Shown one piece after another: positions 13,874 through 26,197 of a DNA stretch of 37,396 nucleotides. A model generated the notes under the pieces. That model was not told the DNA's origin. It ran no database searches and saw only the letters and a program-made list of their open reading frames with translations. This DNA comes from an uncultured Coriobacteriaceae bacterium (GTDB taxonomy: Bacteria > Actinomycetota > Coriobacteriia > Coriobacteriales > Atopobiaceae), in assembly GCA_947426865.1 (NCBI GenBank), contig CANEFS010000012.1:1-37396 (forward strand), in the 5' to 3' direction. Every line of letters begins with the position of its first letter. Position 1 is the first letter of the stretch. The translations under genes were made by a program, and so were the position numbers.

Positions 13874-14344
13874 CTATTTCTGCTTGAGCCTTTGTTGCTC
13901 TTGCATCTTCGCATCAAGCTTCTTTTGTTCAAGCATCCTCCCTTCAAGCCTCTTTTGCTCAAGCTTTTTCTGAGTTGCGCTCATCCACCTAAAGATGAGG
14001 ATGGCCTCAACGATAAAGGTGAGAAGAAAGCTCGCGATGCAAGCAATCGAAAAAGGCAGGAACTTCTCGGGCAAAAATTTAAAAGCGGCGAGCAAGGCAA
14101 CTGTAAAGAAGAGAAACGAAACGAAAAGGACCGCGGCGCCTGCGAGCATGTTTGCATAGGATCGCTTTCTTGCCGCTCGGCACAGAAGGAGCGCAGGAAT
14201 GTTTCCTACAAAGCCAATTATCAGGCCAGAGGTGATGGCGACGATTGTCTCGCTCACGGTGTTTTTGCTGCGAAATCCAAACGACGGCGTTGCGACGACA
14301 GTGTCCAAGCTAGAGCGCTCAGGGCTCAAGCTAGAGCGTTCCAA
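13874..14344 (-). CDS. Small membrane protein with charged C-terminal coiled coil
   Basis: A 156-residue protein of unknown function. It has three hydrophobic segments (about residues 33-55, 66-92 and 97-118) followed by a highly charged Gln/Lys/Glu/Leu repeat (KLEQKRLEGRMLEQKKLDAK and onward) that should form a cytoplasmic helix. The start is uncertain: TTG at 14344 overlaps the end of the RpiB-Upp gene by 14 bp and has no clear ribosome binding site. Just inside lies a direct repeat, GCTCTAGCTTG, that could carry another TTG start. It is probably translated from the same mRNA as the upstream gene. Confidence 0.65.
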   Translation of the reverse strand: MERSSLSPERSSLDTVVATPSFGFRSKNTVSETIVAITSGLIIGFVGNIPALLLCRAARKRSYANMLAGAAVLFVSFLFFTVALLAAFKFLPEKFLPFSIACIASFLLTFIVEAILIFRWMSATQKKLEQKRLEGRMLEQKKLDAKMQEQQRLKQK

Positions 14345-15428
14345 AGATTCTGTCGCCCGCGTCGCCTAAGCCCGGCAGAATGTAGGCGTTGTCGTTCAGT
14401 TGGCGATCAAGCGAGGTCGCAAAAACGCGCACGGTCGGGTCGTGTTCCAGGACGGCATTCACGCCTTCGGGGGCCGCATCAATGACGAGCAGACGCACGT
14501 CCTTCACGCCCGCTTCGCGCAGATAATCGATGGCTGCGTTGGCCGAGCCTCCTGTCGCAAGCATAGGATCTACCAGAAGCACGGTGCGATTCTCGATATC
14601 GCTTGGAAGCTTGCAGTAGTAGGGCTGGGGCTCCTTCGTCTTTGGGTCGCGAAACATGCCGATATGACCAACGCGCGCGGAAGGCAGAAGCTCCAGAAGG
14701 CCGTCGACCATGCCAAGGCCAGCGCGCAGAATCGGGACGATAGCCACTTTTTTGCCCGCAATTTGGGCGGCCTTAGTTTTTTCGAGGGGTGTCTCGACTT
14801 CAATTTCTTCGAGAGGGAAGTCGCGCGTTGCCTCGTAGCCTTCGAAGAGGGCCAGCTCTCGGATGAGCTCGCGGAATTGCTTGGTACCCGTGTTGGTGTC
14901 GCGCAGAATCGCCATCTTGTGCTGGACAAGCGGGTGCGTGATGAGGGAGAAGCGCGACGCGTCCGCAATCTTTTCCAGGGCGTCGGGGTCGGCCACGCAG
15001 TTGCCCATCATCTTTTCCACGCGAACGGCGTGCCTTCCTCCAGCAAACTTCGTCGTGAGAAATTCCTTGACGATTTCAGCGTTTTTCTCGGGCTCTACGA
15101 AGCGACCCGAAAGGCAAATGATGTTGGCGTCGTTGTGCTCACGGGCGAGGTGGGCAAAATCGGGGCGCGTTACAGCGGTCGCGCGCACGCCAGGGAACTT
15201 GTCGGCTGTCATCGCCATGCCAAGGCCGGTGCCGCAGATGAGAATGCCCAGGTCAACCTCGCCGGCCGAGACGGCATTAGCGACGCGCGCGGCATAATCA
15301 GGGTAGTCGACGCGTTCGTCGGTGACAGGTCCGAGGTCTTCGACGGTTGCGCCCAGGCCCTCCGCGGCTTGTATGATGGCGGCTTTTTGGCAAAATCCTG
15401 CATGGTCTGATGCAACAGCAACTTTCAT
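14331..15428 (-). CDS. Fused ribose-5-phosphate isomerase B / uracil phosphoribosyltransferase
   Basis: One uninterrupted 365-residue frame contains two enzymes. Residues 1-150 are RpiB-like: DHAG at 8-11, active-site Cys65 in CGTGLGMAM, and His98 in REHNDANI, matching E. coli Cys66 and His99. Residues 158-365 are Upp-like: THPLVQHKM, LRAGLGMVDGLL, the PRPP loop VDPMLATGGSA at 286-296, and the standard end GLGDAGDRIFGT. The product should interconvert ribulose-5-P and ribose-5-P and make UMP from uracil and PRPP; ribose-5-P is the precursor of PRPP. The genes are often neighbours but normally separate. The start ATG has GGGAG upstream. Either domain could be given its own name, rpiB or upp. 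Confidence 0.92.
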   Translation of the reverse strand: MKVAVASDHAGFCQKAAIIQAAEGLGATVEDLGPVTDERVDYPDYAARVANAVSAGEVDLGILICGTGLGMAMTADKFPGVRATAVTRPDFAHLAREHNDANIICLSGRFVEPEKNAEIVKEFLTTKFAGGRHAVRVEKMMGNCVADPDALEKIADASRFSLITHPLVQHKMAILRDTNTGTKQFRELIRELALFEGYEATRDFPLEEIEVETPLEKTKAAQIAGKKVAIVPILRAGLGMVDGLLELLPSARVGHIGMFRDPKTKEPQPYYCKLPSDIENRTVLLVDPMLATGGSANAAIDYLREAGVKDVRLLVIDAAPEGVNAVLEHDPTVRVFATSLDRQLNDNAYILPGLGDAGDRIFGTL

Positions 15429-20160: not shown

Positions 20161-22233
20161 TTAAAGCCGCTTGCACAAAGAATCGCACTCCTTGAGCCAA
20201 AGAGACACGCAAGCGTCACTTGCCATCTCAAAACCGCCGCGCGGGCTGAGCGAAATTTCGGTCACCCGAGGCCCGTCAACCGAGCAATTCCTCTTGAACT
20301 GCTGCGAGAAAAATCGCGCAAAGAAAACACGCTCCCATCGCGCAATTGTCTTCGGCGCAACCTTAGGAAACGCTCTTTTTGCAAGTTTAAAAATCTCCTT
20401 TGGCGCCTGGCGGTCGCGCAGAAAATGATAGAGAAAAAAGTCGTGAAGCTCGTAGGGTCCAATGAGGTCTTCGGTTTGTTGCTGAATGCGTCCTTTTTTT
20501 GGCGGCAGAAGTTCTGGGCTGATGGGTGTCTCGACGATGTCGAGAAGAACGCGCGCCAGAGTCGCATCGCTTTTCTCCGTGACCTTCCCTAGAGCGCCGC
20601 TAGTTTCGCGGGCGGTTTTCTCGACAAGGGCACGAACCATCGTCTTGGGCACGCCGCCGTTCACGTTGTACATCGACATGTGATCGCCGTTGAACGTCGC
20701 CCAGCCAAGAGCAGCCTCGGACATGTCGCCCGTCCCCACCACGAGCGCGCCTACGTCGTTTGCCACATCCATCAAAATCTGCGTGCGCTCACGAGCCTGG
20801 GCATTTTCGAAGGCGCTATTATGGTCGCTCATGCGGTGGCCGATGTCTTTGAAATGCTGGCGAACAGCCGCGGCGATGGAAATTTCTTTGTAGGTCGCAC
20901 CCAGGGCTTTTGCGAGAAGCTCGGCGTTTGACTTCGTTATTTTCGTCGTGCCAAAACCCGGCATGCTGATGGCGATGAGGTTTTTTGCGGAAAGGTGAAG
21001 CTCTTTCAAAACGCGCGCGCTTACAAGCATTGCAAGCGTCGAGTCAAGGCCGCCCGATACCCCGACAACAAGTTTTTTGATGCCCGTTGCCAAGAGGCGC
21101 TGCTTCAGGCCTGCGACTTGGATGGCAAACGCCTCGTCGCAGATGGCGTCGGCGCACTCTTTGTCAGCGGTCAGAAATGGCTCGGCCGCGTCAGCGCGCG
21201 TTTGTTTGCGGACGCTTAAGAGCTGACAGGCGGCTACTCTCTTAGCAGCTTTACGGGCAGCCTTGCCGGCAGTTTTGTTAGCGGCTTTGTGGGAGGCTTT
21301 ATGGGGGCCTTCAGCTCTGCCTCCCATAAACCATCCTGTTTCCGAGAAAACCAGCGGGTAACCTTCTTTTTCTCTCAAATAGCAAACGCCGTTAAAAACA
21401 TGGTCGGTTGTGGATTCGCCCTCGCCTGCTCCGGCCCGCACCACGGCTAAATTCTCGACGGCGATACAGGCTTGCACGCACTTCTCCGGGGTTAAAGGTG
21501 CAGCAACGGCAGGGGTAGCCATAGGGTTTGCAATAAGGATGGCGCTTTTGTTGCCCTTGGAAGCAGCTTCCAACAAATCCTTTGCGCTCCCCCGCGTGCC
21601 CGGGTAAAAAGCGCCCAAAAAAGGAGCGTTTCCAACTACCACGCGCAATTCTTTAGGAAGGGATTGGAACGCAGAACGTCCGGCTGCGCGACCAAAAGGA
21701 TTCTTAAGAGCAAAGGCGGGATTAACCGGAACTTTCCTTCCGCCCAGCTCAATCGTTGTTTTCAGCTGCGATCCATCGCTGAACCAGCGCAACTCATGCG
21801 CAAGAAGCTGAGCGGAAATCTTAAAATTCCCCTTTTTCTCAAAGACCCCAAAGGCCCCAGACTGAAGTTTTCCATATACCTTAGGCACAATGCCTTTAAC
21901 CTCGCCTTTAGCTAACACGGCTGCCACGTTATAAAGACGCTCCTCAATCATTAGCGGAAGCCCCACAACCAAAACGGCGTCAAGCGCCTTCGTTTTGGAA
22001 GCCAGCTTGAGAAGGGTTTTCTCGGCTGATTGAATGAGAAGGGGCTGCAAAAAAAGGTCGGCACACGTAACGCCCGTGAGAGAGAGCTCGGGAAAAACCA
22101 CGAGGCGCGCACCTGCTTGGGCAGCCTCTTTGGCGTTGCGGGCGAGCTCCTCGGCGTTGGCGGGAGGGTCAGCTAGATAGACATGGGGCGAGCAGGCGGC
22201 CACAGGAATGAGCGGTGAGGGGGCTGAGGTCAT
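20161..22233 (-). CDS. nadE: NAD+ synthetase with nitrilase-like domain (glutaminase Cys apparently lost)
   Basis: Final step of NAD synthesis: amidation of deamido-NAD using ATP. The 690 residues match the long two-domain form. The C-terminal synthetase has the P-loop GVSGGLDST at 391-399 and the usual SVDGPRVTEISLSPRGG end. In the N-terminal nitrilase-like domain the catalytic Glu49 (FPELSLTG) and Lys118 (VPK) are kept. The segment that should read EICED around the nucleophilic Cys reads VVVGNAPF, with Gly201 in its place. GEGESTTD of the same domain is intact, which anchors the alignment. A Lys/Ala-rich insert (residues 312-332) is unusual. The enzyme may depend on free ammonia. AGGA precedes the ATG. 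Confidence 0.93.
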   Translation of the reverse strand: MTSAPSPLIPVAACSPHVYLADPPANAEELARNAKEAAQAGARLVVFPELSLTGVTCADLFLQPLLIQSAEKTLLKLASKTKALDAVLVVGLPLMIEERLYNVAAVLAKGEVKGIVPKVYGKLQSGAFGVFEKKGNFKISAQLLAHELRWFSDGSQLKTTIELGGRKVPVNPAFALKNPFGRAAGRSAFQSLPKELRVVVGNAPFLGAFYPGTRGSAKDLLEAASKGNKSAILIANPMATPAVAAPLTPEKCVQACIAVENLAVVRAGAGEGESTTDHVFNGVCYLREKEGYPLVFSETGWFMGGRAEGPHKASHKAANKTAGKAARKAAKRVAACQLLSVRKQTRADAAEPFLTADKECADAICDEAFAIQVAGLKQRLLATGIKKLVVGVSGGLDSTLAMLVSARVLKELHLSAKNLIAISMPGFGTTKITKSNAELLAKALGATYKEISIAAAVRQHFKDIGHRMSDHNSAFENAQARERTQILMDVANDVGALVVGTGDMSEAALGWATFNGDHMSMYNVNGGVPKTMVRALVEKTARETSGALGKVTEKSDATLARVLLDIVETPISPELLPPKKGRIQQQTEDLIGPYELHDFFLYHFLRDRQAPKEIFKLAKRAFPKVAPKTIARWERVFFARFFSQQFKRNCSVDGPRVTEISLSPRGGFEMASDACVSLWLKECDSLCKRL

Positions 22234-23114: not shown

Positions 23115-23190
23115 TGGTAGCCCCAAGGGGAATCGAACCCCTGTTTTCGCCGTGAAAGGGCGATGTCCTAGGCCACTAGACGATGGGGCC
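23115..23190 (-). tRNA. tRNA-Glu (anticodon TTC)
   Basis: The minus strand reads a full 76 nt tRNA beginning GGCCCCATCGTCTAGTGG, with anticodon loop CTTTCAC (TTC), T-arm GGGGTTCGATTCCCC and an encoded CCA. The acceptor stem GGCCCCA pairs with TGGGGCT (with a G-T end pair). Confidence 0.97.
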
Positions 23191-23353
23191 AAGTGGCTTT
23201 ACGCAGTGTAACTGCAGCGCAAAGTATACAAGACCTTCAATTGTCTCGCAACGGAAATTGCCGAGAAGATATTGGCCGAGAAGCGCTTTGGCGAGAAGGA
23301 CGCGAAAAGGGCAAGGCAAACTGGCTCCGCGCTCGGGCCGGCAAAGCATTAAA

Positions 23354-26197
23354 ATGAATGGAAGCGAAAACCCAGAACCCAAAACAAAACCCCAAACCCC
23401 CAACCCCGCCACGCCTATGACCCTCAATCAAAAACAAGCAGCAAAAGAATTCGTCGAGCGCTGGAAAGCAGAGGAAGGCGACGAGATCAAGCAATCCCGC
23501 TCCTTCTGGATTGAGCTTGCCAGCAAAGTCCTCGGCATCAACGACCCCACCTACGTCCTCGAGTTCGAGCGCAAGGTGCAGGGGCGCCTCGTCGACGTCT
23601 TCTACGAAGACATGGGCATTCTGATAGAGCAGAAATCCCGCGGCGTCGATCTTGACAAGAAATCGGAGCGCTCCAAGCAAGCCGGCGAGGAAACCCCCTA
23701 CCAGCAGGCCAAATGGTACGCCGACCATCTCCCCAACTCCATTCGCCCGGACTGGATTATTGTCTCCAACTTCGACGAGTTCCGCATCCACAATCTTGAC
23801 TCGGCCGACCCCAACCACGACCCCGAGCACGACTACGTCTCCTTCACCCTCGACGAGCTCCCCGACCAACTGCATCTCCTCAAGATGTTCACGGACAAGA
23901 GTTCTTCTCGGCTGGTAAAAGAAAAAGAGCTGTCGGTAAAAGCGGGCGAGCTTGTGGGGCGGCTGTACCAGGCGCTTGCGGCGCAGTATCAAAACATCAA
24001 GACGGACAAGAACGAGCAGCGCAGTCTGAACATTCTCATCGTGCGCTTCGTGTTTTTGCTTTACGCGGAGGACGCCGACATTCTTCAGGAGCACCAGGCG
24101 TTTTTGAATTACATGGCTCACGTCGCGCCGGAGGACATGCGCTCGGCCCTCATCCAGCTTTTCGAGGTGCTGGACACGCCGGAAGACCAGCGCGATCCCT
24201 ACCTTCCCGAGAAACTCTCGGCCTTCCCCTACGTCAACGGCTCGCTTTTCGCCGAGGAGGACATCGTCGTCCCGCAGTTCACGCAAAGCCTCAAAGACGA
24301 GTTGCTGAGCAAGGCCTCGGAAGAGTTCAACTGGTCCGGCATCAGCCCCACGATTTTTGGCGCCGTTTTCGAGTCCACGCTGAATCCAGAGACGCGCCGC
24401 GAAGGGGGCATGCACTACACCTCTCTCGAGAACATCCACAAGGTGATTGACCCCCTCTTCCTGGACGACCTGAAGGCGGAGCTTGCCAAAATTGAGGGCG
24501 AGAAAGTCGTCAAGCAGCGCACGCTGAAGCTTCGGCAGTTCCAAGAGAAGCTGGCCTCCATCAAGGTCCTTGACCCGGCGTGCGGCTCGGGCAATTTCCT
24601 GACCGAGAGTTACCTGTCCCTTCGCAAGCTGGAAAACCGCGTGCTGGAGTCGCTCATGGGCGAGCAGATGGGCCTGGCCTTCACCGGCTCCGACGTCGAC
24701 CCCATCAAGGTCTCCATCGACCAGTTCTATGGTATCGAGATCAACGACTTCGCCGTGGCCGTCGCCAAGACCGCCCTCTGGATTGCCGAGGAGCAGATGA
24801 TGGACGTCACGCAAGACATCCTGCTGATGCCCCTCCACTTTTTGCCCCTCACGACGAACAACAACATCCACGAAGGCAACGCGCTGAGGATGGATTGGAA
24901 TGACATTCTTCCTGCCGAGAAGTGCAACTACATAATTGGGAATCCGCCGTTTGTTGGTTACAGCAATCACAGTAGAGAGCAGCAGGCCGACCGCGAACTT
25001 CTCTTTGGCAAAAACTGCAAAGTGCTCGATTATGTCGCGGGTTGGTATAAGAGAGCAGCAGACTACATGGGTCGCTTTCCAATTCACGCGGCCTTCGTTT
25101 CAACGAATTCCATTACTCAAGGCCAGCAAGTAGAGCCGTTATGGAAACCACTTTTTGAGAGCGGACTGCAAATTGATTTCGCATGGACCACTTTCGTTTG
25201 GAATAGCGAGGCTAAAGACCAGGCACATGTACATGTCGTGATTATTGGGTTCTCACGTGCAGGAACGAGGCACAAAAGATTGTTCACTAACGGTGGCGTG
25301 AGGAAGGTCACACATATAAACGGCTATCTTGCTCCGGCTGCTGATGTATTCATTGCTCGGAGAGGGAAGCCCATACAGGGCGTAAAACCGCTGGTTTGTG
25401 GCTGTAAGCCGACGGACGATGGAAACCTTATTCTTTCACCCGAAGAAAAGGAGGGCCTGATTAAGCAGGAACCCCAAGCGAAGAAATGGATAAGACCATT
25501 TTCGATGGGTGCTGAGTTCATCAATGGTAAAGACCGCTACTGCCTATGGCTCGTGGATGCGAATCCTGAAGACTTACATGCAATGCCACACGTAATGCAG
25601 CGCGTCGAAAAAGTGCGAGAGATGCGCCTCAAGAGCCACAAGGCTGCCACCAATAAGAAGGCTGCAACGCCGTGGCTGTTTGACGAGGTTCATCCGCCAA
25701 AAGGGGAGAGTTATCTGGCCATACCGGTAGTTTCATCGGGACGACGCGCTTATATTCCAATTGATTTTGTTACCAACGGGATGATTCCCGGGGACAAGCT
25801 CTTTTTCATGTCCGATGCGGGATTATATGAGTTTGGCATCTTGATGTCGCAATTTCACAACGCATGGATGCGTGTCGTAGCTGGAAGATTGAAAAGCGAC
25901 TACAGCTACTCGAATACCATCGTCTACAACAATTTCATTTATCCAAATCCTACAAAGAAGGAACAACAAGCTATTGAGAGAGCTGCTCAAGCCGTTTTAG
26001 ACGCGCGCGAATTATCCCGCGAAAGCAGTTTTGCTGACCTCTACGATCCTGACAAGATGCCGCAAGATCTTCTCGAGGCTCATAAGGCACTGGACAAGGC
26101 TGTGGAAGAAGCGTATGACGTAAATTTTGATGGAGATGAAGAGAAGATTGTCTCGCACCTTTTTAAGCTATATGCCGAGGCGACAAAGGATGAGTAA
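23354..26197 (+). CDS. MmeI-like (type IIL) single-chain restriction-modification enzyme
   Basis: One 947-residue polypeptide with nuclease, methyltransferase and target-recognition parts, as in MmeI. Near the N terminus is the PD-(D/E)XK nuclease: Asp81 in GRLVDVF, then EQK at 92-94. A helical spacer follows. Methyltransferase motif I LDPACGSGNF (about residue 405) and motif IV NPPFVGY (about 529) mark an N6-adenine enzyme. The last 350 residues should hold the target-recognition domain. Such enzymes cut about 20 bp from an asymmetric site. The start is uncertain: ATG 23354 or ATG 23417, neither with a clear ribosome binding site; the latter gives 926 residues, nearer the 919 of MmeI. G+C drops sharply after about 24900. 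Confidence 0.9.
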   Translation: MNGSENPEPKTKPQTPNPATPMTLNQKQAAKEFVERWKAEEGDEIKQSRSFWIELASKVLGINDPTYVLEFERKVQGRLVDVFYEDMGILIEQKSRGVDLDKKSERSKQAGEETPYQQAKWYADHLPNSIRPDWIIVSNFDEFRIHNLDSADPNHDPEHDYVSFTLDELPDQLHLLKMFTDKSSSRLVKEKELSVKAGELVGRLYQALAAQYQNIKTDKNEQRSLNILIVRFVFLLYAEDADILQEHQAFLNYMAHVAPEDMRSALIQLFEVLDTPEDQRDPYLPEKLSAFPYVNGSLFAEEDIVVPQFTQSLKDELLSKASEEFNWSGISPTIFGAVFESTLNPETRREGGMHYTSLENIHKVIDPLFLDDLKAELAKIEGEKVVKQRTLKLRQFQEKLASIKVLDPACGSGNFLTESYLSLRKLENRVLESLMGEQMGLAFTGSDVDPIKVSIDQFYGIEINDFAVAVAKTALWIAEEQMMDVTQDILLMPLHFLPLTTNNNIHEGNALRMDWNDILPAEKCNYIIGNPPFVGYSNHSREQQADRELLFGKNCKVLDYVAGWYKRAADYMGRFPIHAAFVSTNSITQGQQVEPLWKPLFESGLQIDFAWTTFVWNSEAKDQAHVHVVIIGFSRAGTRHKRLFTNGGVRKVTHINGYLAPAADVFIARRGKPIQGVKPLVCGCKPTDDGNLILSPEEKEGLIKQEPQAKKWIRPFSMGAEFINGKDRYCLWLVDANPEDLHAMPHVMQRVEKVREMRLKSHKAATNKKAATPWLFDEVHPPKGESYLAIPVVSSGRRAYIPIDFVTNGMIPGDKLFFMSDAGLYEFGILMSQFHNAWMRVVAGRLKSDYSYSNTIVYNNFIYPNPTKKEQQAIERAAQAVLDARELSRESSFADLYDPDKMPQDLLEAHKALDKAVEEAYDVNFDGDEEKIVSHLFKLYAEATKDE

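Follow-up and report, generated by a model that had tools for sequence, protein, structure and literature searches.

Two-domain NAD synthetases are usually regarded as enzymes that use glutamine. Every type F NAD synthetase characterised by 2012 did so (PMC3376133), and in the Mycobacterium tuberculosis enzyme (NadE) the YRE loop is reported both to contact glutamine and to couple the two sites (PMC6946656). Enzymes with a live glutaminase, the human and M. tuberculosis ones included, also accept free ammonia, and the human enzyme has a Km for NH3 of 42 mM (PMC6946656). Among amidotransferases, mammalian CPS1 uses ammonia and carries a glutaminase-like domain without the Cys (Ser294 in the human protein; PMC4655335). 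For two-domain NadE we found no report of a Cys-less form in the open-access literature.

Domain organization of the NAD synthetase

The DNA analysed, a stretch of 37,396 nucleotides that we call the window, carries nadE on the minus strand, the plus strand of the same interval being interrupted by stops. The features of the gene are as follows.

20161..22233, minus strand: nadE, two-domain NAD synthetase of 690 aa (open reading frame; PRK02628, 572 bits; PDB match to M. tuberculosis NadE, E 8e-87)
21289..22212, minus strand: nitrilase-like glutaminase domain, residues ~8-315, predicted to be catalytically dead (partial CN_hydrolase match; fold kept in the model)
22087..22089, minus strand: Glu49, catalytic acid/base column, kept (invariant in the 61-protein alignment)
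21880..21882, minus strand: Lys118, catalytic Lys column, kept (near-invariant in the 61-protein alignment)
21778..21876, minus strand: segment replacing the YRE loop (alignments; pLDDT <50 at residues 123-138)
21625..21633, minus strand: residues 201-203 (Gly-Asn-Ala), nucleophile elbow, with Ala203 at the Cys column (alignments; model strand 197-200)
20164..21180, minus strand: synthetase domain, residues 352-690, intact (NAD_synthase, 103 bits; invariant motifs)
21040..21057, minus strand: ATP-pyrophosphatase P-loop SGGLDS, residues 393-398 (invariant columns in the 61-protein alignment)

The standard annotation model, NCBIfam NF002730/PRK02628, names the protein an ordinary NAD(+) synthase, the score of 571.9 bits exceeding the cut-off of 473. 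The protein's best relatives in the PDB include M. tuberculosis NadE (E 8e-87). The score above the cut-off, domain order, synthetase P-loop and substrate motifs fit the PRK02628, or M. tuberculosis NadE, type, in agreement with the preliminary description, which had read the gene as a two-domain NAD synthetase. Pfam returned NAD_synthase with 103 bits and a CN_hydrolase match confined to residues 11-111. In our main alignment of 61 proteins, the window protein and 60 homologs, the synthetase motifs (SGGLDST, GTGDxSE and others) are invariant and intact in the window NadE.

Two other genes of the window may be noted. A 1004-aa MmeI-type restriction-modification protein adjoins nadE on the opposite strand (23183-26197, plus), and a ribose-5-phosphate isomerase B-like domain is fused to uracil phosphoribosyltransferase at 14331-15428 (minus).

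The structure prediction that the preliminary description had proposed was carried out with AlphaFold2 and the 61 sequences, giving a model with a mean pLDDT of 74.6 and a pTM of 0.79. VIA-align superposes this model on M. tuberculosis NadE with a Z of 38-39 over 540-575 residues and an rmsd of ~20 A, which shows that the domains are positioned differently with respect to each other than in the M. tuberculosis enzyme. The nitrilase-like part retains the nitrilase fold, with a Z of ~24 to amidases by VIA-align and concurring matches by Foldseek.

The glutaminase domain lacks the nucleophile and the YRE loop

Type F NAD synthetases have a complete Glu-Lys-Cys triad and a YRE loop for glutamine binding and coupling. 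In the window protein Glu49 and Lys118 occupy the expected columns, as had been described, while the Cys is missing and the loop, YNEFYE in relatives, is replaced by a longer, unrelated segment. We defined the Cys column as one with at least 90% Cys; the VEICED motif of M. tuberculosis NadE aligns with the family profile. The 61-protein alignment places Ala203 of the window protein at this column, a second alignment concurs, and the near-invariant flanking E, E, D and W columns correspond to G201, P204, F205 and G207. The Cys was originally proposed to be replaced by Gly201, which would require a two-residue shift of the alignment; the model shows a strand at 197-200 followed by G201 in a stretch of low confidence, and the long branch of the window protein makes the alignment uncertain at the residue level around 120-220. 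By alignment, therefore, Ala203 occupies the Cys column, although the exact residue is uncertain. The loss of the nucleophile, with no other Cys nearby, is upheld in either register, the closest cysteines along the sequence being residues 57 and 252. None of the three frames read across the stretch contains an EICED-like motif, which rules out a hidden frameshift.

With the Cys, its E and D neighbours and the YRE loop all gone and the synthetase motifs intact, the window NadE is, on the evidence of its sequence, very probably a working, ATP-dependent NAD synthetase that depends on ammonia and retains a dead glutaminase domain for structure; the loss of glutamine use put forward in the preliminary description is thus supported. 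The enzyme would take free ammonia, or ammonia freed by other enzymes, and the nitrilase-like domain would have been retained since folding and oligomeric assembly rely on it. Given the Km of the human enzyme for NH3, such use of ammonia may need a high local concentration.

Recurrence of the loss in Atopobiaceae and beyond

The family of the window was assigned by sequence identity to Atopobiaceae, the NadE proteins of Olsenella massiliensis and Atopobium sp. oral taxon 199 being 100% identical to those of family members. A match was found in 136 of the 140 genomes of the family. The Cys column could be read in 83 sequences, 66 with Cys and 17 without, a frequency that is biased since the sampling was skewed to window-like sequences. 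The Cys-less proteins are spread over 8 genera: the window itself (g1), the single examined genomes of g2, g5, g14 and g35, 8 of 14 in g28, 3 of 4 in g32 and one of g10, in which the region is deleted. Wherever a residue is present the replacement is Gly (14 of 16 rows) or Ala (G096 and the window), and the Gly is encoded by GGC, GGA, GGG and GGT against TGC and TGT for Cys.

In two genomes of g32, G031 and G106, the Cys is gone and the loop intact, whereas g28 and most other Cys-less rows lack both, which suggests that the Cys went before the loop. The g32 genomes also provide natural Cys/Gly pairs (G107 versus G031 and G106), making the question of the nitrogen donor directly testable. On a gene tree built only from the synthetase domain, the Cys state must have changed at least 3-4 times: the minimum count is 4, and starred branches force 3 of these changes. 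The place of the window in this tree is unsure owing to its long branch. The window NadE groups on long branches with another protein (L093), in which the whole stretch around the Cys is absent; it comes from a second very small genome of the family (G009), ~0.6 Mb and 57% complete. In our main reading the family has undergone several parallel losses, that in the window among them, and the Atopobiaceae relatives that share it probably make NAD from free ammonia.

Outside the family, 76 of the 80 homologs listed from named genomes read E-x-C-E/Q-D and one further sequence (L200) is incomplete. The remaining three, two from Lachnospiraceae MAGs (L127 and L178) and one from a Candidatus Epulonipiscium MAG (L203), all of them unrelated MAGs from the gut, have EIGED in place of EICED. 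A phylum-wide scan of the DNA for the pattern E-x-G-E-D-L-W, which misses diverged cases, matched 6 of 396 genomes, none of them in NadE.

Selection on the Cys-less domain

We compared terminal branch lengths on a fixed topology by a one-sided Mann-Whitney test and found a glutaminase/synthetase ratio of 2.49 in Cys-less lineages versus 1.65 in the others (P = 0.023). Pairwise dN/dS of the glutaminase domain, measured in relatives outside the window's genus, was 0.06-0.32 for Cys-less and 0.03-0.22 for Cys-bearing proteins. In the pair G094 and G105, which lack both Cys and loop, dN/dS was 0.057 for the dead domain and 0.063 for the synthetase. Taken together, the branch ratios and the dN/dS values of close relatives indicate that constraint is somewhat relaxed, yet the domain is kept by selection. 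That purifying selection still acts on the domain in close relatives sharing the loss, and that the model has the nitrilase fold, agrees with the earlier proposal that the domain survives as structure.

An alternative is that the Cys-less domain now serves another function, in which Gly exposes the ammonia tunnel to solvent or a different ligand bound in the pocket regulates the synthetase. The prevalence of Gly in the family with all four of its codons in use, its appearance in three outside lineages and the equal dN/dS of the dead domain and the synthetase in G094 and G105 all speak for this idea. We nevertheless consider it unlikely, as the window itself has Ala at the Cys column, the domain evolves faster than in Cys-bearing lineages and Gly may merely ease strain at the nucleophile elbow. 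The recurrent Gly may reflect either strain relief at the elbow or opening of the tunnel.

Ammonia supply in the genome of the window

The window belongs to a draft MAG, 94% complete, whose 29 contigs total 1.04 Mb. PF02540 has three matches in this assembly, namely the window NadE, GuaA and a NadE-like protein on contig 1:

L002:628-2715 (contig 1:93785-95869), plus strand: NadE-like paralog of 695 aa, degenerate in both domains

The paralog has TGDLNSS in place of SGGxDS and lacks the Glu/Lys/Cys triad. It has relatives in most genomes of the window's family and in family f10, and is a probable conserved pseudoenzyme. Lacking Glu, Lys, Cys and P-loop, it can be ruled out as a compensating glutaminase. 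Only the window NadE and this paralog carry a CN_hydrolase domain in the 94%-complete assembly, whose missing sequence could carry a subunit; within this assembly a separate glutaminase subunit was rejected because the sole other CN_hydrolase protein is the degenerate paralog, and no second G-subunit of the CN_hydrolase type, as in NADS types C and R, is present in the genome. The class I glutaminases found, GuaA and PyrG, each retain their Cys, which rules out a general loss of glutaminases. Glutamine use as such has therefore not been lost, and the loss in NadE is specific.

Ammonia might instead come from a non-homologous partner enzyme, a glutaminase or an amidase, docked on the dead domain, given that glutamine is the usual amide donor of amidotransferases and that single-domain NADS have separate G-subunits (PMC3376133). 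The loop that couples glutamine is absent, though, and neither this genome nor G031 or G106 has a second CN_hydrolase-type subunit, so that we regard such a partner as quite improbable. That the gene is an artefact of assembly or sequencing, or a pseudogene in decay, for which the draft assembly and the long branch might speak, is the least credible explanation of all, since the frame is open over 690 codons with intact synthetase motifs, no frame hides the motif, independent genomes show the same loss and the assembly contains no other intact NAD synthetase.

Across genomes, the presence of the ammonium transporter Amt or of glutamine synthetase followed no clear pattern with Cys-less or Cys-bearing status. 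The window's own genome gave no Amt match and a partial glutamine synthetase match in a 739-aa frame, perhaps glutamine synthetase type III; the matches of relatives likewise lie in frames of ~700 aa.

NAD synthetases across the order

Within the order to which the window's family belongs, families f3-f9 have a different, PRK13981-like, two-domain NadE type, while most NadE proteins of f2 consist of just a synthetase domain, ~275-330 aa long. The PRK13981-type protein is the sole NadE in the other families of the order. We sampled 30 sequences from f2-f9 (L255-L284), with 24 from the rest of the phylum as controls. Glu, Lys and Cys were each found in 0 of the 30 order sequences, all of which keep SGG, versus 23, 24 and 24 of the 24 controls, respectively. 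The degenerate paralog of f10 and of the window's family (f1) groups with the PRK13981-like set of the order with a support of 99, on long branches.

In the simplest reading, glutaminase activity would have been lost in the NadE of the ancestor of the order, and f2 would then have shed the domain. The window's family and f10 would have gained the M. tuberculosis-type enzyme while the old gene decayed further, and in the former the glutaminase of the new enzyme would have been lost again, several times, on top of the older order-wide loss in the other NadE type. More broadly, free ammonia may have become the nitrogen source for NAD synthesis in the whole order through in-place inactivation of the glutaminase domain, once in each of two NadE types independently, with the dead domain, typically with Gly, kept in a positive role in ammonia entry, assembly or regulation and the doubly dead paralog being a family-wide pseudoenzyme; we offer this wider scheme as a tentative one, possible rather than probable.

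Whatever its extent, recurrent loss in place means that the customary assumption of glutamine use fails across a family and, in the other NadE type, across its order. It also suggests that these bacteria rely on free ammonia for the nitrogen of NAD in vivo.

Comparison with known systems

The window NadE shares with the M. tuberculosis NadE type (PRK02628; PDB 3dla, 3syt and 6ofc) the domain order, the fold, the synthetase motifs and the Glu and Lys of the triad, but lacks the nucleophile Cys, the E and D beside it and the YRE loop, and is not expected to use glutamine. Free ammonia is the expected nitrogen source that it has in common with the single-domain NH3-dependent NadE of Escherichia coli and Bacillus subtilis (type N; PMC3376133). 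Type N enzymes have no glutaminase domain, whereas in the window NadE a nitrilase-like domain is still fused and folded in the model; within the same order, f2 does have a bare synthetase domain.

The C176A mutant of M. tuberculosis NadE (PDB 3sdb, 3seq, 3sez and 3szg) has Ala at the nucleophile position, like the Cys column of the window protein, and keeps its fold. It is an engineered single change, while the natural Cys-less proteins have lost surrounding residues too. CPS1 resembles the window enzyme in having a fused glutaminase-like domain that has lost its Cys and in using ammonia, which for the window NadE is predicted. It is, however, an unrelated enzyme with an unrelated class of glutaminase, and its change is Cys to Ser rather than mostly Cys to Gly; unlike the CPS1 case, the loss in NadE has been repeated several times.
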